64,000 nucleotides of DNA from Cognatishimia sp. 1_MG-2023 (GTDB lineage Bacteria > Pseudomonadota > Alphaproteobacteria > Rhodobacterales > Rhodobacteraceae). Below the pieces are notes generated by a model. It searched no databases. It saw only the letters and a list, made by a program, of their open reading frames with translations, and had not been told where the DNA came from. The first letter of the stretch is position 1, and each line of letters begins with the position of its first letter. Below, in pieces: positions 3,487 through 46,130 of this stretch. Position numbers and translations under genes: made by a program. The DNA lies in NCBI RefSeq assembly GCF_030548175.1, contig NZ_JAUORX010000004.1, forward strand, positions 62,001 through 126,000, written 5' to 3'.

Positions 3487-3700
3487 AAACTCGATGATTT
3501 TTGCCTGCATGACGAAATAGAAGTGCTGCTCGGCCACCCTCTATCCCACTGCCATCATTGAAAAATGTTCTATTGAAGTGACTATACGCCTCTACAAACG
3601 AATCGGTCAAGGGCCCGCGAATCGCTTTTGCCGAATCAATCACATAACGATTCGCAGAAGTGAGTCGTTTCAACGACTTAGCCTGTGAAAAAAATTTGCG

Positions 3701-6076: not shown

Positions 6077-6958
6077 TCAGCGCCTTATGGCAATTCGTGC
6101 TGCCAGCCATAGACACAGCAAAACTGGCCCCTCTATCAGCAAAGCCGTTCGCACAATATCCGTATCGTCTGGACCATAGGGCACATGTAGCAAGGCTAGA
6201 CCATCCCAATGGCCTGACATGGCCATGATCAGCAGAGCAGAGACATTGTTCACAAAATGCAACGCAATGGCTGGGCCAAGGTTACCCGCGCGCGCCGTTA
6301 GGTCGGCGGCCACGATGCCAAAACCAACCGCCCAAAGCGCAATAATCACCGCATTATCGCCATAGGTTTCGGGCGATAGATGCAGAAAGCCGAACAACAC
6401 ACTCGGCAAGACCATCCAAACCGCAGGATGCGTGAATCGCGCCGCCAGCTGGCTTTGCAGATAGCCTCGGAAAATAAGCTCTTCGGTCGAAACCTGTATC
6501 AGAAGGGCCAGCACACCAAGCGGCACCAATGGCAGCCAATCGGCGAAACTCATGTGGAAATCTGGTCGCAAGGCTTCGGGCATGGGAATGATCAAAAACA
6601 CACCCAACATCACCAGCCCAACACGCAAGACCTTATAGAAATCGTGAAACGCCTCGCGCAATGGCCCAAACAAACTGCGTAAACCGCGTTTATGGATCAA
6701 TCGCAACGACACCCATAGCGCACCGGCCGGTAATACAAAGGACACCAAAGTAATCAGAACTCCGCGCGCGGTTGACCCATCTGTCAGTTCAACCTGCAAC
6801 TGCGCCCAATCGGACCGCCCCTGAAGCCATTCCAACAGAGCCAAATTAAACGCCCCAACGGCGAAAATCAGAAACACAAAGCTTCCGATCAAACGAGGCA
6901 CCCCAGCGCTCGCGCGGGCAGGTGCAATGAAATCTTGGTGGCGGTCATACGGCGTCAT
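6077..6958 (-). CDS. CPBP family intramembrane metalloprotease
   Basis: A polytopic membrane protein of the CPBP (CAAX protease and bacteriocin-processing, Abi) family, 293 residues. The catalytic motifs are all visible: EExxxR at E159-E160/R164 (in STEELIFRGYLQ), the FxxxH-type motif ending in H193 (FGFLHLS), and HxxxN at H235-N239 region (ALHFVNN). Roughly seven to eight transmembrane segments surround them. The natural substrate in alphaproteobacteria is unknown. The start at 6958 gives MTPYDRHQDFIAP. It lies 61 bases upstream of accD on the same strand. Confidence 0.9.
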   Translation of the reverse strand: MTPYDRHQDFIAPARASAGVPRLIGSFVFLIFAVGAFNLALLEWLQGRSDWAQLQVELTDGSTARGVLITLVSFVLPAGALWVSLRLIHKRGLRSLFGPLREAFHDFYKVLRVGLVMLGVFLIIPMPEALRPDFHMSFADWLPLVPLGVLALLIQVSTEELIFRGYLQSQLAARFTHPAVWMVLPSVLFGFLHLSPETYGDNAVIIALWAVGFGIVAADLTARAGNLGPAIALHFVNNVSALLIMAMSGHWDGLALLHVPYGPDDTDIVRTALLIEGPVLLCLWLAARIAIRR

Positions 6959-35995: not shown

Positions 35996-37333
35996 ATGAA
36001 ACTCGCAAGCAAAATTGGGCTTACCGCTGCAGCGGTTATGTTGCCCTCGCTGGCCCTGGCCCAAGATGGTCCAGTCGCCGGTGTAAACGCCTCGACCGAC
36101 ACGGTCTTTATCCTTAACTCACTACTGTTCCTTGTTGGCGGCTTCCTCGTTTTCTGGATGGCTGCTGGTTTTGCCATGCTCGAAGCAGGCCTGGTACGTG
36201 GCAAGAACGTGACTATGCAGCTGACAAAGAACATCGCATTGTTCTCTTTGGCGGCGATCTTTTATTACCTGATCGGCTACAACCTGATGTACCCACTGGG
36301 TACATGGTCTGTTGATGGCGTTCTATCTGGCGTCTGGGGCACAGCAGCACTGGAAGCTGTAGGCGTAACTGCAGAAACAGCAGACGACTATTCCTATGCA
36401 TCCACTGGCTCTGACTTCTTCTTCCAGCTCATGTTCTGCGCAACTACCGCGTCTATCGTTTCCGGTACTTTGGCCGAGCGCATCAAACTGTGGCCATTCC
36501 TGTTGTTCACAATCGTTTTGACAGCGGTCATCTATCCTTTGCAGGCTTCCTGGAAATGGGGCGGCGGCTTCTTGGACGAAGCAGGCTTCCTAGACTTCGC
36601 GGGTTCTACCGTTGTTCACTCTGTTGGCGGCTGGGCTGCTTTGACAGGCGCGATCATCCTTGGCCCACGTATCGGCAAGTATAACAAAGAAGGCCGCACA
36701 ATCCCTATGCCGGGTTCCAACCTGACACTGGCAACACTGGGTACATTCATCCTGTGGCTCGGTTGGTTCGGCTTTAACGGCGGCTCTCAGCTGGCGATGG
36801 GCACAGTAGGCGATGTTGGCGACGTATCTCGTATCTTCGCAAACACAAACACAGCTGCTGCTGGTGGTGCAATCGCCGCTCTGTTGCTGACACAGTTCAT
36901 GTACAAAAAGCCTGACCTTACAATGATCCTAAACGGCGCATTGGCTGGCCTCGTTTCCATCACTGCAGAGCCACTGACCCCAACATTGGGTGAAGCAACT
37001 CTGATCGGTGCAGTTGGCGGTGTAATCGTAGTCTTCGCGGTTCCATTCCTTGATAAGCTGAAAATCGATGACGTGGTTGGTGCGATCCCAGTTCACTTGA
37101 TCGCTGGTATCTGGGGCACAATCGCAGTTGTCTTCACAAACGGCGACGCGTCCTTGGGCACACAGCTGTACTCCATCCTTGTGGTTGGTCTGTTCACAGT
37201 GGTTGTTTCCGGTGCCGTTTGGTTCATCTTGAAAGTCACAATGGGCATCCGAGTAACCGAAGAAGACGAAATCAACGGTTTGGACATGGCAGAATTGGGC
37301 ATGGAAGCATACCCAGAGTTCTCCAAAGGCTAA
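35996..37333 (+). CDS. amtB: Ammonium transporter AmtB
   Basis: A 445-residue trimeric ammonium channel. A cleavable signal peptide (MKLASKIGLTAAAVMLPSLALAQ) is followed by eleven transmembrane helices. Typical features are the FWMAAGFAMLEAGLVR helix, the twin-histidine region beginning DFAGSTVVHSVGGWAALTGA, and the second pore histidine in DVVGAIPVHLIAGIWG. The cytoplasmic tail (about 25 residues, ITEEDEINGLDMAELGMEAYPEF in type) is the P-II contact. It forms an operon with glnK and ends at a strong terminator. Confidence 0.96.
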   Translation: MKLASKIGLTAAAVMLPSLALAQDGPVAGVNASTDTVFILNSLLFLVGGFLVFWMAAGFAMLEAGLVRGKNVTMQLTKNIALFSLAAIFYYLIGYNLMYPLGTWSVDGVLSGVWGTAALEAVGVTAETADDYSYASTGSDFFFQLMFCATTASIVSGTLAERIKLWPFLLFTIVLTAVIYPLQASWKWGGGFLDEAGFLDFAGSTVVHSVGGWAALTGAIILGPRIGKYNKEGRTIPMPGSNLTLATLGTFILWLGWFGFNGGSQLAMGTVGDVGDVSRIFANTNTAAAGGAIAALLLTQFMYKKPDLTMILNGALAGLVSITAEPLTPTLGEATLIGAVGGVIVVFAVPFLDKLKIDDVVGAIPVHLIAGIWGTIAVVFTNGDASLGTQLYSILVVGLFTVVVSGAVWFILKVTMGIRVTEEDEINGLDMAELGMEAYPEFSKG

Positions 37334-37356
37334 GCCTTTCCACACATAACCTGGAA

Positions 37357-37387
37357 AAGCCCGGAGCATCGCTTCGGGCTTTTTTTA
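37357..37387 (+). terminator. Rho-independent terminator of glnK-amtB
   Basis: An 11-bp stem (AAGCCCGGAGC / GCTTCGGGCTT, one G-T pair) with loop ATC is followed by a run of T residues to 37387. It begins 23 bases after the amtB stop. Confidence 0.95.
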
Positions 37388-37415
37388 TTCAATTTCAAAG
37401 TTCTATCTTCTCTGA

Positions 37416-37601
37416 ATAATTGAGATCTCAGTTACAGTGTCGGTATTCGCAAAGCTGCTAAAAACAGGCAGATCGTCAATGACAATTCAGGCATGGCGAC
37501 GACGACGCGACCAAGCCCATTCCGAAGCCGTGACAGAAGCACAATTTGTTTTTGTTTCAGTGGATCAGGACGGCAAATCACGCCCCTTGAAGGCTGAGTA
37601 G
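37416..37601 (+). pseudogene. Remnant of an acyl-CoA thioesterase (3' end only)
   Basis: In one frame that is open for 61 codons and ends at TAG 37599-37601, I read a peptide whose last 45 residues match the C-terminal half of hot-dog-fold acyl-CoA thioesterases: VFAKLLKTGRSSM, then QAWRRRRD, then VTEAQFVFVSVDQDGKSRPL. The N-terminal half, including the conserved catalytic helix region (MPSDTN.NG..FGG type), is missing and the sequence upstream is the amtB terminator. ATG 37479 could in principle start a 40-residue peptide, but without the catalytic part it cannot be an active enzyme. This is a truncated gene. Confidence 0.72.
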
Positions 37602-37604
37602 CGT

Positions 37605-38009
37605 TTATGGGCGCCCATCGGTGAACTGTACCAAATCCCAAAGCGTTCCATATAGGTCCTTAAACACGGCAACGACGCCATATTCTGCTTCCTTGGGTGG
37701 TCGGACGAACTCTACACCTTTCTCTAGGTAGGCGTGATAATCGCGCCAGAAATCATCGGTACGCAGGAATAGAAACACGCGACCGCCTGCTTGGTCCCCA
37801 ACAAAGGCCTGCTGTCGTTCATTCGAAGCCTTTGCAAGTAGGATCGAGGCCGCGCCATCACCTTTCGGCGTCACCACCACCCATCGCTTATCTTGTTCGG
37901 GCTGATAGCTATCTTCGACCAACTCAAAACCAAGCGTATCCACGTAGAACGAAATCGCTTCTTCATAATCACGCACAACCAACGAGATGTGGGCAAGTGT
38001 TTGGGGCAT
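37605..38009 (-). CDS. VOC family protein (glyoxalase fold)
   Basis: A 134-residue vicinal oxygen chelate protein with a typical pair of beta-alpha-beta-beta-beta units: LAHISLVVRDYEEAISFYVDTLGFELVEDSY first, and GGRVFLFLRTDDFWRDYHAYLEKGVEFV, then VVAVFKDLYGTLWDLVQ second. The histidine in AHISLVV and the late acidic residue region are possible metal ligands. Substrate unknown. ATG 38009 is preceded by AAAGGAG 7 bases upstream, so the upstream in-frame codons to 38057 are excluded. It ends three bases from the thioesterase remnant. Confidence 0.9.
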   Translation of the reverse strand: MPQTLAHISLVVRDYEEAISFYVDTLGFELVEDSYQPEQDKRWVVVTPKGDGAASILLAKASNERQQAFVGDQAGGRVFLFLRTDDFWRDYHAYLEKGVEFVRPPKEAEYGVVAVFKDLYGTLWDLVQFTDGRP

Positions 38010-38081
38010 GTCGCACTCCTTTGGCGATACCATTCCCGTGCTTCGGGAAAACGACAATACACAAAATGGTCTGCAACAAAA

Positions 38082-38105
38082 AAGGCGCCAAAACTGGCGC
38101 CTTTT
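38082..38105 (-). terminator. Rho-independent terminator of tyrB
   Basis: AAGGCGCCA pairs with TGGCGCCTT across AAAC. On the minus strand the stem is followed by TTTTTTGTTG, so it ends transcription coming from tyrB, 22 bases after its stop codon. The plus strand also has a T-rich tail, so it may act in both directions. Confidence 0.9.
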
Positions 38106-38126
38106 CTTAAATCTGAAAACTTGGCT

Positions 38127-39311
38127 TTAGATACCAGCCTCGACAATGGCTTTCGCCAAAATCGGCACGGTCTCGGCGTTCAAGCCAGCGATATTCATGC
38201 GGCTGTCGCCGACCATGTAAATACCGTTGTCAGCACGGAGTTTTTCAACCAATTCCGGTGTTGTACCGATTTGGCTGAACATACCGCGGTGCTCAGCAAT
38301 AAAGCCAAACCGATCAGAGCCTGAAAGCTTGCGTAATTCATCCGCCAATTGCTCGCGCAGCGCCAACATACCCAACCGAATTTCTTCCAACTCAGCGGCC
38401 CAATCAGCGCGCAATTCTGGGTCTGTCAAAATCGTTGTAACAACCCGTGCACCATGGTCCGGTGGGAAGGAATAGTTTTGGCGGTTTAGGAAGTTTAGGT
38501 TCTGCTGAACGAGTGGCGTTGATGCCGCATCCTCTGAGATTGCCATCAAAATGCCTGTACGTTCCCGATAAACACCGAAGTTCTTAGAGCAGCTACCCGC
38601 GATCAAGCATTCTTTGACAGAAGACGCGACCAAACGTGTGGCGGCTGCATCTTCCTCTAGACCATCACCAAAGCCTTGGTACGCGATGTCGACCATCGCG
38701 ATTAGGCCTTTATCGTTGATCAAATCAACAACTGCCTGCCATTCGGTCAGGTTCAGGTTTGCACCTGTTGGGTTGTGGCAGCAGCCGTGTAATAGCACAA
38801 CATCGCCCGATTTGGCTTCGCTCAGATCAGCCATCATGCCATCGAAATCAACAGCACGTGTTTCAGTATCAAAATACCGATAAGCGACAGTTTCGATACC
38901 AACGTACTTCAGGATCGAAACATGGTTCGGCCAAGTTGGGTTAGACACGAACACGCGCGCTGTTGGGTTCGCCATCTTAACCAGCTCAAACGCTTGACGA
39001 ACGGCACCCGTCCCACCAGGGGTCGCGACTGCTGCGATCTTTTCACGCTGAACCGCATTGCCCAAAACAAGGCCAATCATCGCATCTGCAAACGCTGGAT
39101 CACCTGCCAAGGCCACATAGCTTTTGGTCTCTTGCTCAGCGACTAAGCGGCGCTCAGCTTCTTTCACCGCGCGCATCACTGGGGTCACGCCCTCAGCGTT
39201 TTTGTAAACACCAACACCTAGATCGATCTTGGTAGGGCGCGGATCCTCTTTGTACTTCGCCATCAAGGCGAGGATCTTATCCGCAGGTTGCTGTTTTAAG
39301 GTGCTAAGCAT
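38127..39311 (-). CDS. tyrB: Aromatic/aspartate aminotransferase (class I)
   Basis: A 394-residue PLP-dependent aminotransferase of the AspC/TyrB subgroup, which interconverts aspartate, glutamate and aromatic amino acids with their oxo-acids in the cytoplasm. Segments typical of this subgroup are KIDLGVGVYKNAEGVTPVM and SNPTWPNHVSI, and the PLP lysine is in AGSCSKNFGVYRERTG. The C-terminal arginine contact lies in GDSRMNIAGLN. Whether aspartate or aromatic substrates dominate cannot be read from sequence. It starts directly after the sseA stop codon. Confidence 0.93.
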   Translation of the reverse strand: MLSTLKQQPADKILALMAKYKEDPRPTKIDLGVGVYKNAEGVTPVMRAVKEAERRLVAEQETKSYVALAGDPAFADAMIGLVLGNAVQREKIAAVATPGGTGAVRQAFELVKMANPTARVFVSNPTWPNHVSILKYVGIETVAYRYFDTETRAVDFDGMMADLSEAKSGDVVLLHGCCHNPTGANLNLTEWQAVVDLINDKGLIAMVDIAYQGFGDGLEEDAAATRLVASSVKECLIAGSCSKNFGVYRERTGILMAISEDAASTPLVQQNLNFLNRQNYSFPPDHGARVVTTILTDPELRADWAAELEEIRLGMLALREQLADELRKLSGSDRFGFIAEHRGMFSQIGTTPELVEKLRADNGIYMVGDSRMNIAGLNAETVPILAKAIVEAGI

Positions 39312-40169
39312 TCAAGCTTCTCCGGTTGCAATAGGGACTGTTGGGAAGGCGCCCCATTCAGTCCAGGACCCATCATAGAGCGCATGATCGGTCTTACCAA
39401 AACGCTCCATCGCTAGGCAAAGGATCGCGGCAGTTATGCCCGATCCACAGGTTGTAATAGCTGGTTTATTCAAATCCACACCGGCGGCTTCAAAGATGGC
39501 ACGCAATTCGGTTGGGGATTTCATAGTCTTGTCAGCATTCAGCAATGCACCAAAAGGCACATTGCGTGCCTTTGGGATGTGGCCAGATCGAATGCCTTCA
39601 CGTGGTTCTTCGACTTCACCGCGAAACCGTTCGCCAGCGCGCGCATCAATGATAGCAAAATCACCCAACTTGGACGCATGGGAAACTTGTGTAACATCCT
39701 TAACCATCTGATCTTGGCGCGTCACAAACATGTGGCGATCGCGGATCAATGGGCGTTCTGTTGTGACCGGCCGGTTTTCGGCCTTCCACTTAGGCAGGCC
39801 ACCGTCCAAAACAGCAATATCATTCTGCCCCATCAGCTTAAACAGCCACCACACGCGGGCCGCAGAAAACAGGCCAGAGCCATCGTAGACAACGATCTGA
39901 TGACCATCGCCGACACCCATGGCCCGTACACGAGACATGAATTTCTCTACGGGTGGAACCATATGAGGCAGGTCTGATCGCAGATCGGAAATCTCATCAA
40001 TATCAAAGAAGCGAGCCCCCGGAATATGCCCTGCTTCATATTCAGCTTTTGGGTCACGGCCTTCTGCTGGCATAAACCACGATGCGTCCAGAACCCGTAG
40101 GTCAGGATCTTTCAAGTTTGCCGCCAACCATTCGGTCGAGACAAGCGTTCTTGGATCATCTTGTGACAT
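39312..40169 (-). CDS. sseA: 3-mercaptopyruvate sulfurtransferase
   Basis: A 285-residue two-domain rhodanese that transfers sulfur from 3-mercaptopyruvate to thiol acceptors. The second domain has the active-site loop TTCGSGITAA, the CG-S/T-G-V/I-T form that marks mercaptopyruvate enzymes rather than thiosulfate ones. The N-terminal domain begins LVSTEWLAANLKDPDLRVLDASWFMP. It is upstream of and contiguous with tyrB (stop and start adjacent), so cysteine-derived mercaptopyruvate could be made by the neighbouring transaminase. That link is a reasonable inference. Confidence 0.93.
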   Translation of the reverse strand: MSQDDPRTLVSTEWLAANLKDPDLRVLDASWFMPAEGRDPKAEYEAGHIPGARFFDIDEISDLRSDLPHMVPPVEKFMSRVRAMGVGDGHQIVVYDGSGLFSAARVWWLFKLMGQNDIAVLDGGLPKWKAENRPVTTERPLIRDRHMFVTRQDQMVKDVTQVSHASKLGDFAIIDARAGERFRGEVEEPREGIRSGHIPKARNVPFGALLNADKTMKSPTELRAIFEAAGVDLNKPAITTCGSGITAAILCLAMERFGKTDHALYDGSWTEWGAFPTVPIATGEA

Positions 40170-40271
40170 GAAGGCCCCAAAAATTTGAAAACGAATATTG
40201 CCTACTACTCAGGGCATGCAGAGGCAAGGCCGGACCCCATGTTTCAGGGGCCCTTGCCAAGTTTTTACATA

Positions 40272-40553
40272 TTATTTTGCCATCGCTTTGCGAACAGCGC
40301 CAACAATCGCAAGAACTACGCCACCGCCAACACCGCCACCGGCGACCTGGCCAATGATGGCGCCAATATCTAACCCGCCAGCTGCACCACCCATTTCAGG
40401 CGCGCCAAGCATCGACAAAATAGTACCACCAAGGCCACCACCTACAATTCCAGACAGCGAGTTGATCAGCGTTCCTTGGTTCAATCCCTTAAGAGCGCCG
40501 CCCGCGACATTGCCCCCAACAGCACCCGCAATTAGACTAATGATTAGTTCCAT
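40272..40553 (-). CDS. Small glycine-rich membrane protein
   Basis: A 93-residue, very glycine- and alanine-rich protein with two or three hydrophobic stretches (MELIISLIAGAVGGNVAGGAL, LSGIVGGGLGGTILSML, IIGQVAGGGVGGGVVLAIVGAV) and a short basic end (RKAMAK). The pattern resembles small membrane proteins often auto-annotated as hypothetical, in the style of GlsB/YeaQ. AGGAGGG stands 6 bases upstream of the start, a strong ribosome site. It is isolated between sseA and a 378-base non-coding region. Confidence 0.78.
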   Translation of the reverse strand: MELIISLIAGAVGGNVAGGALKGLNQGTLINSLSGIVGGGLGGTILSMLGAPEMGGAAGGLDIGAIIGQVAGGGVGGGVVLAIVGAVRKAMAK

Positions 40554-40831
40554 TGAATTCCCTCCTGGTCCGAAAAATCCGGCCGCTCATAAGGATCCAT
40601 CCCCGCGGCGATCTCAGGCTATTCTGCGTTCCAAAGGAAAAAACGGGGAATTCAGGACGGACTTCCCCCAATCACTGGACAACAAATGGCTGATCGCAAT
40701 TTCGTGATCAGGCCAACTCATCGTTTCTTGCTATGAAAATAGAGGTTATTGGGAAACAGATTTCCAAAGTTAGCGCATTTGTGAACATAATAGTCCCAAA
40801 ACTGCGCAAAATTCGTTAGTATCATTCATAT

Positions 40832-40918
40832 ACCTTCGAATCGAAGGTCCGACATACGAGTGCCAGGGAGTTACGAGTGGCCCCATGTTGTGGAAACACA
40901 GCATGGGGTTTTATTTTT
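40832..40918 (+). ncRNA. Candidate small RNA (3' part)
   Basis: Two plus-strand hairpins follow each other: ACCTTCGA-A-TCGAAGGT (40832-40848) and a strong terminator (40881-40908) with the T-rich tail TTTTATTTTT. The nearest plus-strand gene upstream that could need this terminator ends more than 3 kb away, beyond several minus-strand genes, so an independent transcript is the simplest explanation. The 5' end is unknown; a start somewhere in 40740-40830 would give an RNA of about 90-180 bases. I do not recognise the family. Confidence 0.5.
40881..40918 (+). terminator. Orphan rho-independent terminator
   Basis: CCCCATG-T-TGTG pairs with CACA-G-CATGGGG around a GAAA loop, followed by TTTTATTTTT. 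The minus strand has no T-run after the stem. No plus-strand gene precedes it. Confidence 0.85.
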
Positions 40919-40931
40919 CTGCTGAAGCAAT

Positions 40932-41408
40932 CTATTCGCCGTGGCGCAGCAATCGTTGCTTTTGGCGGCCCCAGTCGCGTTTTGCTTCTGTCGCGCGCTT
41001 ATCGTGCAACTTCTTACCTTTGCCGATACCGACTTTGAGTTTCACATAACCCTTGTGATTGAAATACATAACGATAGGGACAATGGTCATGCCTTTTCGC
41101 TGTGTCTCATTCCAAAGACGCGACAACTCACGCTTGCTTACCAACAGCTTACGACGACGGCGTTCTTCATGTGAAAACATGGCGCGGTCGTAGGGGGCGA
41201 TATAGCTATTCACCAACCACAGCTCGCCATCTTTCACTTCGGCGTAGCTTTCCGCGACGTTGGCGGAATTCTCGCGAAGCGACTTCACCTCAGACCCAGT
41301 CAGAATGACCCCGCATTCGATATCATCGTCGATAGCATAGTCAAACCGTGCGCGCCGGTTTTCGGCGATCACTTTATAATTGGGGTCACTTTTAGGTTTC
41401 TGAGCCAT
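40932..41408 (-). CDS. smpB: SsrA-binding protein SmpB
   Basis: Binds tmRNA and delivers it to stalled ribosomes for trans-translation. The 158-residue length and the motifs [29 protein letters not shown] and [33 protein letters not shown] (basic C-terminal tail that reads the mRNA channel) are diagnostic. No tmRNA gene is seen in the window. It is followed 90 bases upstream by rppH on the same strand. Confidence 0.96.
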
Positions 41409-41497
41409 AGTCGGGATTGATTACATGTGCGGTCGCGCACTGTCCATTGGTTTCACGGTCACAAGATATGAAAGCAGCGCTGATTTTCAATCCACGG

Positions 41498-41989
41498 TCA
41501 GGATTGTGAAAGGTAGGGTTCAAATTCTGCGACCACCTGCTCATAGACTGATCGCTTGAATGGTACGATATTTTCAACCAGTTCATTGACTGGTAGCCAT
41601 CGCCACTCAGAGAACTCCTGATGATCCACCTCAATGTTCACATCAGCATCTGATCCGTGAAAGCGGAAAAGAAACCACATCTGCTCTTGGCCTTTGTAAC
41701 GGCCCTTCCAGATGCGTGGCACCAGATCATGAGGCAAGTCATAAGCGACCCAGTCTTTGGTCTCTGCCACGAGCGTTACCAAATCAGGGGAAACGCCTGT
41801 CTCTTCCTCAAGTTCGCGCAAAGCGGCAGTCTTAGCATCTTCACCTTTGTCGATTCCACCTTGTGGCATCTGCCATGCGGGAACATCGCTATCCAAGCGT
41901 TGGCCGACGAAAGCCTCGCCCTGCGCATTGACAAGCATGACGCCAACATTGCGACGATAGGGTAGTTTTGCGATCTCTTCTGGTGACAT
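41498..41989 (-). CDS. rppH: RNA pyrophosphohydrolase RppH
   Basis: A Nudix hydrolase that removes pyrophosphate from the 5' end of mRNA and so starts RNase E-dependent decay. The Nudix box [23 protein letters not shown] is complete, and [24 protein letters not shown] plus [11 protein letters not shown] are specific to the RppH subgroup. The start at 41989 ([13 protein letters not shown]) gives 163 residues with GGAG 8 bases upstream; an in-frame ATG at 42001 is possible. It follows ctpA, 150 bases downstream on the same strand. Confidence 0.93.
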
Positions 41990-42136
41990 GAATATCTCCA
42001 TCTTCGCCCTAGAAGCCCAATAGGCACTTTGGGACAAGGGCGCTTCAACCGAACAACCTCGCTCTTTTGCGAAACGCAAATGAGCGAGGCTTAATGCGCG
42101 CCAAAGGCACACTTGATAACGGTTGCCGCTATTGGG

Positions 42137-43480
42137 TTAGTTTTTTGGTGCCAGCGCTGACAGGCCCTTCAAAATATCAATTGCATAGGCCAGTTGATAA
42201 TCGTCCTCGCGAAGCTTCGCTGCTGCTTCAGCCGTGGCGCGGTCTTCCTCAATTTGACGAATTTCATCTTCGCTTAGGCTGTCGTTATTCAAAGATCCAC
42301 GCAAATCTGCCTCTGTACGGCTACGACGCGTTTCTTCTGCTACTTCTTCCTCACTAGCGGGGGCACGGCGCGGCTGTTCAACAACGATGTCAGGTGACAC
42401 GCCAAGCGCCTGAATGGATCGGCCTGAAGGCGTGTAGTAACGCGCTGTTGTCAGGCGCATCGCGCCTTCGCCGCGCAATGGCATGACCGTTTGCACGGAC
42501 CCTTTACCAAAGCTCTTGGTCCCAACAACAATCGCGCGACGGTGATCTTTCAATGCACCAGCAACGATTTCAGATGCGGATGCAGAACCGCCATTGATCA
42601 GAACAACCAATGGCTTGCCATCAATCAAATCGCCCGGAGTCGCATTGTAGCGTTCGCCATCTGCTGCTTCGCGGCCACGCGTCGAAACGATCTCGCCTTT
42701 TTCAAGGAATGCGTCAGACACGCGGATCGCCTGCGTCAGCAATCCGCCTGGGTTATTACGCAGGTCCAAGACCAGACCATTCACGTTCTCCATGCCGCCA
42801 GCGGCTTCGATCTCTTTCTCAATACCCTCTTTTAGGTTTGGATATGTTTGATCATTAAACGTGGTCACACGCATTACCAAAGTATCACCTTCGGTACGTG
42901 CACGAACTGCAGTCAATTTAATGGTGTCACGGATGATCGACACGTCAAACGCCTCGGTTTCGCCTTCGCGTGCAATCGTGACGATAATTTCAGACCCGAC
43001 CGGACCGCGCATCAATTCAACGGCTTGATCCAAGGTTAGACCCAACACACTTTCACCGTCGACATGCGTGATGAAATCACCCGCTTCGATTCCAGCCTCA
43101 GATGCAGGCGTGCCATCAATCGGAGAAACGACTTTAACAAAGCCTTCTTCTTGTGTGACTTCGATACCTAATCCGCCGAACTCACCACGTGTCTGCAAGC
43201 GCATCTGCGCCGCATCTTGTGGAGCAAGATAGCTGGAATGCGGATCAAGCGACGTAAGCATGCCGTTAATGGCAGCTTCGATCAATTCACCCTCATCGAC
43301 GTCCTCGACATATTGTGCGCGGATGCGCTCAAAAATATCACCGAATAGATCAAGCTGCTCGTAAACGTTGGCTTTGCGATCATTCTCTTGGGCAATCAAT
43401 GGCCCCGCAATCTGGGTGGTGGCCAATATGCCGGCCAAAGTGCCGCCCAGTGCGGCTACGACGAATCTTCTCATCCTCAT
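42137..43480 (-). CDS. ctpA: S41 family C-terminal processing peptidase (CtpA)
   Basis: A periplasmic tail-specific protease of 447 residues that trims envelope proteins and, in several bacteria, degrades peptidoglycan hydrolases. A signal/anchor segment (FVVAALGGTLAGILATTQIAGPL) is followed by a PDZ domain (GIEVTQEEGFVKVVSPIDG...AGDFITHVDGES, about 100-180) and the S41 core with the catalytic serine in NGGSASASEIVAGAL and lysine in SFGKGSVQT. A C-terminal tail of about 70 charged residues follows. Start 43480 overlaps the envC stop (ATGA); ATG 43474 is an alternative. The envC-ctpA coupling supports a role in cell wall turnover. Confidence 0.93.
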   Translation of the reverse strand: MRMRRFVVAALGGTLAGILATTQIAGPLIAQENDRKANVYEQLDLFGDIFERIRAQYVEDVDEGELIEAAINGMLTSLDPHSSYLAPQDAAQMRLQTRGEFGGLGIEVTQEEGFVKVVSPIDGTPASEAGIEAGDFITHVDGESVLGLTLDQAVELMRGPVGSEIIVTIAREGETEAFDVSIIRDTIKLTAVRARTEGDTLVMRVTTFNDQTYPNLKEGIEKEIEAAGGMENVNGLVLDLRNNPGGLLTQAIRVSDAFLEKGEIVSTRGREAADGERYNATPGDLIDGKPLVVLINGGSASASEIVAGALKDHRRAIVVGTKSFGKGSVQTVMPLRGEGAMRLTTARYYTPSGRSIQALGVSPDIVVEQPRRAPASEEEVAEETRRSRTEADLRGSLNNDSLSEDEIRQIEEDRATAEAAAKLREDDYQLAYAIDILKGLSALAPKN

Positions 43481-44613
43481 CCATCCTTGTTGGTTTGGAA
43501 CCAATCCTCCGGGTTCACCGGAGTCTTACCCTGTCTAACTTCTATATAGAGCGTTTCCGTGCGGTCCTGACCAGAGCCATCACTCGACTGTGAAAGAATG
43601 GCACCGATTTCTGGGTCATTTCCGCCCATTAATCCCACCGGAGCGCCACTTGGCACCACTTCTCCCACGTCTCCGTAAACAGTTTCTAGCCCTGCGAACA
43701 CAAAAAGCAGCCCTGGCTGTGGCTCTAAGACCATCACATTACCGTAATCCAATAGCGGCCCGCGATAACGAATCGTAGCTGCGGCAGGTGAAGTCACCAG
43801 CGCATTTGGCCGCGCGGCCAAGACCAATCCGGGGCGGCGCAATCCTGCGGCATCTGCCTCACCAGGCCTACGCAAAATCTCGGCCTGTACTGGTAATGGC
43901 AAATTACCTTTGCGATGTGAAATATCAGGCAAGCTTGCCAGACCTTCTGGCTCTGGCGCCATTTCCGTAAGGCCGCTCGCAAATCCCTCAAGCGTTTCAG
44001 TGGAGGCAATCAATAACGCAGTCTGAACGGGGTCTTCGATAAAGCGTTTTGGCAAATTCGTTCGATCCGAAATCGCCTTTGCCAATGCCGCACGCGCCGC
44101 TTGCGCGCCATCCAGCCCATTTTGCAAAGTATCCGCAGCGCCTTGTTGTAGTTCGGCGAGGATTTGCACCTCTTCCAAACTTTCCCGCAATTTAGCAGCT
44201 TGGACGTCTAAAGCAGGCGTAATATCGGCCAAAATCATCCCAGCGCGTGCAGTGCCCTCTGGCCCGTCAGGATGCAAAAGTAATGTCGGGCTGCTATTGC
44301 CACCTAACGATTGCAGAACGCCCAACAACCGAGCAATCTCATTCTCTTGCGACTTTAACTGCTGATCCAACTGCTTTTCTCGGATGGCAGCTTTGCGCAA
44401 CCCTTCGCGCAAGGCAGACAGCCCTTCTTCGTAAGCTTGAACAGCCTGCGTTAAAGCTTTCACGCGGTTACGAGACGTCTTTGCTCCCTGCAAAGAAATG
44501 GATGCCTGCTCTAACTTATCAGCTGCGTCGCGCGCTGTTACTGCCGCATCAACTTCAGCATGAGCTGCGCCCACGCCAAGTAAGACAGACAGAAGTAGCG
44601 CAAACAATCTCAT
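43477..44613 (-). CDS. envC: EnvC-like murein hydrolase activator
   Basis: A 378-residue periplasmic protein. Signal peptide (MRLFALLLSVLLGVGAAHA), then a long coiled-coil region (about 25-200, with repeated LEQ/AxxL heptads), then a LytM (peptidase M23) domain at the C terminus (about 265-378). The HxxxD/HxH zinc ligands of active LytM enzymes are not visible: the usual final HL region reads FVFAGLETVYGDVGEVV. That degeneracy is what is seen in EnvC, which activates amidases instead of cutting. Its start overlaps the gpmI stop by four bases. Confidence 0.9.
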   Translation of the reverse strand: MRLFALLLSVLLGVGAAHAEVDAAVTARDAADKLEQASISLQGAKTSRNRVKALTQAVQAYEEGLSALREGLRKAAIREKQLDQQLKSQENEIARLLGVLQSLGGNSSPTLLLHPDGPEGTARAGMILADITPALDVQAAKLRESLEEVQILAELQQGAADTLQNGLDGAQAARAALAKAISDRTNLPKRFIEDPVQTALLIASTETLEGFASGLTEMAPEPEGLASLPDISHRKGNLPLPVQAEILRRPGEADAAGLRRPGLVLAARPNALVTSPAAATIRYRGPLLDYGNVMVLEPQPGLLFVFAGLETVYGDVGEVVPSGAPVGLMGGNDPEIGAILSQSSDGSGQDRTETLYIEVRQGKTPVNPEDWFQTNKDG

Positions 44614-46130
44614 CGTTTAATCAAGCTTTCGCCGGTCATTTCTGCAGGCTGCGGTAATCCCATTAGGTCCAGCAAGCTCGGAGCGAGATCCGCCAATCGC
44701 CCACCTTGACGCAGCGATGCCCCCTCGGGGCCGTTTACCAAGACCACCGGAACAAGGTTTGTTGTGTGCGCAGTATGCGGCCCACCAGAAATCGGGTCGA
44801 TCATCATCTCGCAATTCCCATGATCTGCTGTCACAATCATAGCACCGCCAGCTTTCAACAACGCGTCTTGGACCGCGCCAAGCCCGCTATCCACTGCACT
44901 GCAGGCCGCCATTGCAGCGTTCAAATCACCCGTATGGCCAACCATGTCTGGATTTGCGTAGTTGGTCACAATCAGATCATAACCTGCCTCAATCGCAGCG
45001 ACGAATTTCTCGGTCACTTCGCTTGATGACATCTCTGGTTGCAGGTCATAGGTCGCCACCTTCGGAGACATCGGCATAAAGCGATCTTCGCCTTCGCTTG
45101 GTGTCTCTTCTCCGCCGTTCAAAAAGAACGTCACATGCGGGTATTTTTCTGTTTCTGCCAAACGGAACTGCGTCTTACCTTGCGCCGCAACCCATTCACC
45201 AAGCGTGTTGACGATAGGTTTCTTCGGATAAGCAGATGTCATGTATTTCGTATGCGCGTCAGAGTAATCCACCATGCCCAGCATCTCGAGCTTGGGTCGC
45301 GCACCGACATCGAAACCGTCAAAATCCGGCTGCCCAATCGCCGCCAGAATTTCACGCGCACGATCAGCCCGGAAGTTTAGGCAGAACAGACCATCACCAT
45401 CTTTCACGCCCGCATAATCGCCAAGAACAGTTGCTTGGATAAACTCATCATTTTCGTCGCGCGCATAGGCTTCGTTTACGGCAGAAATGGCATCTGTTGA
45501 CTGCAAACCTTTTGCGTGGATCATCGCGTCATAGGCCTGCGATACGCGCTCCCAACGGTTATCGCGATCCATTGCGAAATATCGACCAGTCAACGTGCCA
45601 ACTGTCACGCCTTCGGCCAATCCTGCATTCAACGTTTCAATGTACTTTAATGCAGAGATCGGAGCCACGTCACGCCCATCGGTGATCGCGTGCAATACTA
45701 CAGGAACGCCATGATCTGCCACGGCTTTTGCCGCTGCTAAAACATGTGTCAGGTGCCCATGAACACCACCGTCCGAAATGACACCCATCAAATGCGCTGT
45801 GCCTTTGGTCACTTTTAGTTTCGCGACGAAACCTAGGATTTCCTCGTTAGAGAAAAACGAACCGTCCTCAATAGCCAAATCAATCTGCCCAAGGTCCATC
45901 GCGACAACACGACCGGCACCAATATTGGTATGGCCAACTTCAGAGTTTCCCATTTGCCCGCTTGGCAACCCCACATCAGGACCATGTGTGATCAGCGTGG
46001 CGTTCGGGCAATTTGCCATCATTCCGTCGAATACAGGTGTTTCCGCGAGAACAGGCGCATTGCCTTCGGTCGTGTCACTCAGTCCCCAACCATCAAGAAT
46101 GCAAAGAACTACGGGTTTCGGCGTTGGCAT
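44610..46130 (-). CDS. gpmI: 2,3-bisphosphoglycerate-independent phosphoglycerate mutase
   Basis: The manganese-dependent phosphoglycerate mutase of glycolysis/gluconeogenesis. At 506 residues it is full length; the metal aspartate is in LDGWGLSD (D13), and the catalytic serine is S63 in SGQMGNSEVGHTN. The C-terminal metal cluster includes the TADHGNCEMM motif. The start at 46130 (MPTPKPVVLC) has CCGGAG nine bases upstream and matches the family; an in-frame ATG at 46151 is less likely. The order gpmI-envC-ctpA is conserved across many proteobacteria although no metabolic reason is known. Confidence 0.96.
   Translation of the reverse strand: MPTPKPVVLCILDGWGLSDTTEGNAPVLAETPVFDGMMANCPNATLITHGPDVGLPSGQMGNSEVGHTNIGAGRVVAMDLGQIDLAIEDGSFFSNEEILGFVAKLKVTKGTAHLMGVISDGGVHGHLTHVLAAAKAVADHGVPVVLHAITDGRDVAPISALKYIETLNAGLAEGVTVGTLTGRYFAMDRDNRWERVSQAYDAMIHAKGLQSTDAISAVNEAYARDENDEFIQATVLGDYAGVKDGDGLFCLNFRADRAREILAAIGQPDFDGFDVGARPKLEMLGMVDYSDAHTKYMTSAYPKKPIVNTLGEWVAAQGKTQFRLAETEKYPHVTFFLNGGEETPSEGEDRFMPMSPKVATYDLQPEMSSSEVTEKFVAAIEAGYDLIVTNYANPDMVGHTGDLNAAMAACSAVDSGLGAVQDALLKAGGAMIVTADHGNCEMMIDPISGGPHTAHTTNLVPVVLVNGPEGASLRQGGRLADLAPSLLDLMGLPQPAEMTGESLIKR

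Follow-up and report, generated by a model that had tools for sequence, protein, structure and literature searches.

Between smpB and a glycine-rich open reading frame (ORF) of Cognatishimia sp. 1_MG-2023, a gap of 378 bp holds a palindrome and a one-way terminator on the plus strand, and comparison with related genomes indicates that they belong to a selected, structured, noncoding unit of a single polarity. Since a 24-nt core within this unit has stayed nearly unchanged while its surroundings drifted freely, the predicted RNA very probably has a real function. We consider it probable that the unit is a stand-alone gene of ~85-90 nt (~40829-40918) for a trans-acting small RNA (sRNA) of the Hfq type. 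All positions refer to the window, which is the whole stretch of 64,000 nucleotides that was analysed, and the features are as follows.

Ends at 37333, plus strand: ammonium transporter gene, with its own terminator at 37353-37385
40272-40553, minus strand: glycine-rich ORF without a Pfam family match
40779-40787, plus strand: conserved upstream box TTGTGAACA, a possible activator site ~43-51 bp before the predicted start
40817-40822, plus strand: predicted -10 element TAGTAT (alternative TATCAT, 40820-40825)
40832-40848, plus strand: 5' hairpin, a perfect 17-base palindrome ACCTTCGAATCGAAGGT, seen in the sequence
40838-40842, no strand assigned: GANTC, a putative CcrM site within the 5' palindrome and the sole GANTC between 35355 and 41851
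40855-40878, plus strand: invariant core TACGAGTGCCAGGGAGTTAYGAGT, a candidate seed or binding site, from the 8-genome alignment
40879-40918, plus strand: intrinsic terminator stem-loop and U-rich tail, from sequence, terminator scan and folding
Stop end at 40932, minus strand: smpB, identified by a Pfam SmpB match

The original prediction had proposed a small plus-strand RNA between the glycine-rich ORF and smpB, and the structure conserved in 8 of 9 Cognatishimia genomes supports this. The start that had been given, 40740, is too early because conservation indicates an RNA of ~40829-40918; we place the start near 40829-40832. The description of the ORF at 40272-40553 as a membrane protein was a mere impression, and the ORF has no Pfam family. 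In all eight RNA-bearing genomes (G000 to G007), the RNA locus lies between smpB and sseA and is convergent with smpB.

The strongest evidence for selection comes from the core, where 23 of the 24 columns are identical across the eight genomes. In the same genomes, smpB has only 2 of 49 fourfold-degenerate sites and 20 of 158 third positions invariant, a mean DNA identity of 80% and a longest invariant run of 8 bases. If the 49 fourfold smpB sites are taken to give the neutral rate, the invariance of the core has a P of ~3e-31. The whole RNA alignment contains 41 invariant columns, and nearly all of them are found in the core and the terminator stem. The predicted sRNA, which appears with one genus, is far more constrained than the silent positions of the neighbouring core protein gene.

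Minimum free energy (MFE) folds of the eight RNAs pair parts of the core, differently from genome to genome. The hairpin that the core can form by itself is weak (-0.6 to -1.8 kcal/mol, equalled by 126 to 189 of 200 shuffles), and the helix predicted within the core shows one-sided changes only. Because of these one-sided changes and the thermodynamic weakness, the core was treated as mainly single-stranded. Most sRNA seeds are shorter than 24 nt, and an invariance of this length suits a protein or a structured partner at least as well. It is conceivable, though unlikely, that a real RNA binds a protein as a sponge or a 6S-like decoy and that the core is the protein site. The core would then perhaps fold into a weak hairpin UAC-GA-GUG/UAY-GA-GUR with tandem G-A pairs and CAGGGA in the loop. 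This would explain that the whole core is invariant, beyond a seed of 7-10 nt, and that the variable core column and the column just after it retain G-Y in 8/8 and U-R in 7/8 genomes; however, the core hairpin is no better than its shuffles, and CsrA, the natural candidate, is absent from the genome. CsrA recognises CARGGA, and a CsrA sponge was rejected after PF02599 had given 0 matches in the genome of this strain.

A small protein encoded across the core was also considered. The GTG frame (GTG CCA GGG AGT TAY GAG) is open and its single variable base is synonymous, but the other synonymous positions are frozen, while only 20 of 158 smpB third positions are invariant. Moreover, the frame continues through the terminator, and neither a conserved stop nor a clear ribosome site was recognised by eye, so that we regard this explanation as extremely improbable. 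When the alignment was inspected by eye, no stop codon was conserved in any frame; at the position of an ATG in four genomes, the remaining four carry ACG. The noncoding reading is accordingly the better one for the aligned sequences.

Downstream of the core, the terminator stem (40879-40910) consists of 14 pairs with a GAAA loop and is followed by TTATTTTTCT. The strong GAAA-capped plus-strand terminator of the original prediction was thus found again, as was the 17-base inverted repeat ahead of it, which is the palindrome ACCTTCGAATCGAAGGT at 40832-40848. By pair count, the terminator is among the two strongest terminator-like sites in 36000-46000. As a class, such sites are not enriched in this region (7 found, 10.9 expected), and the terminator scan by itself was therefore not taken as evidence. 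The 5' arm CCCCATG is invariant across the eight genomes, whereas G001, G005 and G006 have a weak U-tail. No T-run follows the stem on the minus strand, where the flank ACTCRTAACTCCC is identical in 8/8 homologues save 1-2 bases. The plus-strand polarity is kept in all eight genomes, which bears out the earlier claim that the terminator has one sensible direction. With this intrinsic terminator and its U-rich end, the intergenic locus has the form expected of an independent gene for an Hfq-dependent sRNA.

The region 40820-40920 folds with -36.8 kcal/mol (z -4.3), and none of 200 shuffles was as good. Covariation was analysed with the RNAalifold structure of the 8-genome alignment, which was compared to 500 shuffles and to the structure slid along the alignment. 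Helix 1, the 5' hairpin, was paired in 89.4% of the alignment cells and had 4 of its 6 pairs changed on both sides; for helix 3, the terminator, the values were 98.9% of the cells and 2 of 11 pairs. For the structure overall, 96.3% of the cells were paired (88.4% shuffled, at most 49.5% slid) and the covariation score was 0.311 (0.164 shuffled, reached in 0/500; at most 0.07 slid). Cells changed on both sides numbered 17, compared to 5.9 in the shuffles (0/500). In total, three of the five measures were better than all 500 shuffles, and two were not significant, namely the number of pairs changed on both sides (65/500) and that of further pair types (245/500). In the MFE folds, which were computed for a single fixed-length stretch per genome, hairpin 1 was present in G000, G001, G005 and G006 and absent in G002, G003, G004 and G007. 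This weakens the case for hairpin 1, which nevertheless still stands.

These structural results bear on two further explanations. The first is that the conserved stretch acts as DNA, either as the site of a regulator or recombinase or as a sigma-54 promoter of the opposite strand. The palindrome, the GANTC site, the direct repeat TAYGAGT in the conserved stretch and a TGGCAC on the minus strand would fit such an element. The compensatory changes in the hairpin arms and the terminator present in 8/8 genomes fit an RNA instead, and phages and plasmids gave no match and viral contigs no exact core, which makes a DNA element very improbable. The sigma-54 consensus is GG-N10-GC; a minus-strand promoter of this type was rejected, since the -12 GC doublet is missing in 8/8 genomes. 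A mobile origin was likewise rejected, as no acceptable match was obtained in phages, plasmids or viral contigs.

The second is that the terminator is merely conserved without a separate transcript. Terminator matches are common, and the examined matches of our covariance model outside the genus are GC-rich stems. But a plain terminator leaves the 24-nt invariant stretch ahead of the stem and the covarying second hairpin unexplained, and no family-supported plus-strand gene was found to end within 3.4 kb upstream, a result that covers part of the intervening ORFs. We find this explanation scarcely credible. The earlier claim that no plus-strand gene exists for over 3 kb upstream holds for family-supported genes in this sense; most of the plus-strand ORFs between the ammonium transporter gene and the RNA lie opposite minus-strand ORFs.

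The position beside smpB raised the question of an antisense function. Transcription of smpB points toward the RNA, and ~13 bp separate smpB from the terminator. An RNA that is cis-antisense to the 3' end of the smpB mRNA, or that insulates the convergent pair, would agree with the convergent arrangement in 8/8 genomes and with the minus strand lacking a T-run, so that smpB transcripts may read into the RNA. On the other hand, the locus positions in G001 and G006 put the terminator ~110 bp from the smpB stop, and an antisense-only role needs no invariant sequence, since the complementarity to the opposite strand is automatic. We therefore hold this role for improbable. The core showed no special pairing with the 5' regions of smpB, the glycine-rich ORF, gcrA and hfq, for which the boundaries of the family matches served as approximate gene starts. 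A tie to tmRNA was rejected, as the tmRNA gene is on a different contig and the core showed no special pairing with either of its strands. We conclude that the link between the RNA and smpB is purely positional.

Returning to the sRNA gene as the preferred reading, its predicted promoter was examined by comparison between the species. In five of the eight genomes, a hexamer that agrees with TATAAT at 4 to 6 of its 6 positions is located 38-39 bases ahead of ACGAGTG. It is clear in G000, G002, G003, G004 and G005, ambiguous in G007 and poor in G001 and G006. Since a scan with the sigma-70 consensus gave no promoter at the RNA locus, the -10 call is based on this comparison alone. Further upstream, the box was recognised by eye in five of eight genomes: it is exact in G000, G003 and G007, reads TGTGAACA in G004 and TTGTGAAAA in G002, and was not seen in G001, G005 and G006. 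The window contains 3 copies of it where 0.73 were expected. The box, as TTGTGAACA(CAA), is near-palindromic, and its two further exact copies in the window are at 6247 and 36504 on the minus strand.

The palindrome of the 5' hairpin contains a GANTC, a sequence that is depleted in the window (87 found, 231 expected). In seven of the eight genomes (not in G006) a GANTC occurs at most 45 bases before the core, where the local background predicts 0.056 per genome. The corresponding P of ~1e-8 is a post hoc value that takes no account of shared ancestry, and a palindromic hairpin by itself raises the odds of a GANTC at its centre. In the five genomes with a clear hexamer, the GANTC begins 14-16 bases after the hexamer (12 in G000 with the alternative hexamer), which places it at about +8 to +11 relative to the presumed start. 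In these five genomes, the site is at the apex of the hairpin with G, A, T and C fixed and N being A in G000, T in G002, C in G003, T in G004 and A in G005.

In Caulobacter, CcrM marks have been reported to recruit GcrA to promoters, and mutation of the sites cripples several of them (PMC3667746); GcrA is encoded in the genome of our strain. The catalogued cell-cycle promoters of Caulobacter carry their GANTC no more than 50 bp ahead of the start (PMC4287350), whereas the GANTC of the RNA lies downstream of the predicted start. For this reason, methylation control stays a lead. If the site is functional, the sRNA gene would be timed by a methylation mark inside its transcribed region. The palindrome might then be used doubly, as a DNA methylation switch and as the 5' stem of the RNA, which would explain the fixed GANTC letters at the apex despite the varying N and the covarying arms. 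We rate it as doubtful, though worth keeping, that a young sRNA born in this genus carries a CcrM site in its first hairpin and that replication-dependent hemimethylation sets the timing of its expression, once in each cell cycle. The small RNAs EcpR1 and CcnA belong to alphaproteobacterial cell-cycle circuits (PMC4414408, PMC8959179) and are of the kind that this lead would predict. CcnA is located in the replication origin and has tentatively been placed under CtrA (PMC8959179), whereas the Cognatishimia RNA is beside smpB with a GANTC; the sequences were compared only through the Rfam search described below. Independent of the RNA, five GANTC sites were noticed within 67 bp (3600-3666) of the window, which is ~2.7-fold depleted of GANTC. 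They lie where an AFG1-type ATPase gene and a folC-like gene of the Mur ligase family converge, in the gap between the two.

In the gene that we propose, a promoter and a 5' stem-loop precede the invariant core of 24 nt, after which comes an intrinsic terminator whose tail is U-rich. Once transcribed, the RNA would be loaded on Hfq via its U-rich 3' end, and Hfq is encoded in the genome (PF17209, E 2.3e-33). The 5' hairpin may protect the end of the RNA and keep the core open, and the core would pair in trans with one or several mRNAs or another RNA, possibly extending into the CCCCAUG arm of the terminator. An sRNA with comparable features is StsR (RSs0827) of Rhodobacter sphaeroides, a stress-related RNA of 72 nt for which Hfq binding and base pairing have been reported (PMC8307010). 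Both RNAs are short and from the same broad bacterial group, a comparison made by description only.

Possible targets were searched in nine genomes with two patterns complementary to the core halves, allowing at most 3 mismatches, and with the reversed patterns as controls; short or wobble-rich seeds are missed by these patterns. The half-core complements were found at 26 and 54 non-self places, the reversed controls at 23 and 154. When 51 of these 80 places were compared for orthology, three orthologous groups emerged. Two of them are confined to the near-twins G001 and G006, and the third, which falls within the gene of ribosomal protein L9, links G003, G005 and G007. Among the 51 places, no target was common to most genomes and the genome of our strain did not appear in any orthologous group. 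The site GCTCGTAACTTCCTGC in the gene of ribosomal protein L9 (L143 1501-1516; L152, L153) allows 15 consecutive pairs with the core by eye, G-U included. It is found in G003, G005 and G007, which form a single clade, and encodes a conserved ARNFLL stretch. In the other six genomes, that of our strain included, no such site was listed at up to 3 mismatches, and it was therefore taken as a codon coincidence; a clade-specific target is possible.

The distribution of the RNA was analysed at several depths. With blastn, the region was matched in 8 of 40 genomes including its own, all eight of them Cognatishimia. The covariance model R1 matched eight of the nine Cognatishimia genomes with E values no higher than 1.7e-27, which is expected for training sequences since R1 was built from these eight. 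The original prediction was to be judged in part by the conservation of both stems in relatives, and both stems and the linker are indeed found in 8 of 9 genus genomes; among the genomes sampled, this conservation ends at the genus boundary. G008, which is 99% complete, gave no match and has no RNA, indicating that one species can do without it. With up to 3 mismatches allowed, the core was present in 1 of 295 genomes of the family, the own genome, and in none of the other 294. Among named genomes, the exact core was found in four records (C. maritima, C. activa, Cognatishimia sp. SS12 and a Cognatishimia MAG). R1 gave matches in 28 of the 295 family genomes, 27 of them other than the own. Those outside the genus were rejected as homologues, since the 28 examined of 31 places other than the gene itself are GC-rich terminator stems without the core. 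In G000, G006 and G007, R1 also matched extra places, which are either GC-rich stems or the same site on the opposite strand. Downstream of smpB in other genera, no core was found in the loci examined (L054-L082, 29 loci, 60 genomes matched), a comparison in which the motif pattern missed 12 of the 29 loci. Rfam gave 0 matches in the window; two local matches (E 2.1 and 9.6) are far below the gathering scores. Taken together, these searches indicate that the RNA is found only in Cognatishimia among the genomes sampled.

The literature offers an experimentally found sRNA catalogue for another roseobacter, Ruegeria pomeroyi DSS-3, the main text of which does not mention smpB (PMC4809877). In searches that largely covered papers outside subscription, Cognatishimia and sRNA were not found together, and the matches listed for smpB with sRNA and for roseobacter sRNAs contained no description of the RNA.

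The glycine-rich ORF allowed us to follow the locus further back. In other genera, it is beside smpB without the core at L060 and L068 (by tblastn) and at L062 (by eye), and in G008 an ORF 80% identical to that of the window is beside smpB with the RNA missing. Among the eight RNA-bearing genomes, tblastn found it whole in G000 and, in G002, over 53 residues with 45% identity; it was undetected in the other six. Since these six keep the RNA without a detectable glycine-rich gene, the RNA is not simply its cis-regulator. In a tree of two proteins, which has one weak node within the genus (0.47) and a partial SseA of G007, G002 is near the base and G008 groups with G001 and G006 (support 0.967). 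From this placement, a gain at the genus stem and a single loss in G008 would be the simplest history; recombination at G008 is a possible alternative. The RNA was probably born at the genus stem, in the region that lies upstream of the glycine-rich gene and is divergent from it, and in most species it would have persisted after the gene had gone. Because living relatives show the locus both with and without the RNA, the birth of an sRNA becomes datable and testable.

Two observations concern the neighbouring genes. In the six RNA-bearing genomes where it is undetected, the glycine-rich gene was apparently lost after the RNA arose; it is intact in G000 and G008 (window 40272-40553; L084, L089). 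In the Cognatishimia MAG, a second ammonium transporter-like match (L041 86-2852) faces the first near the smpB locus and is 73% identical to the transporter of the window.
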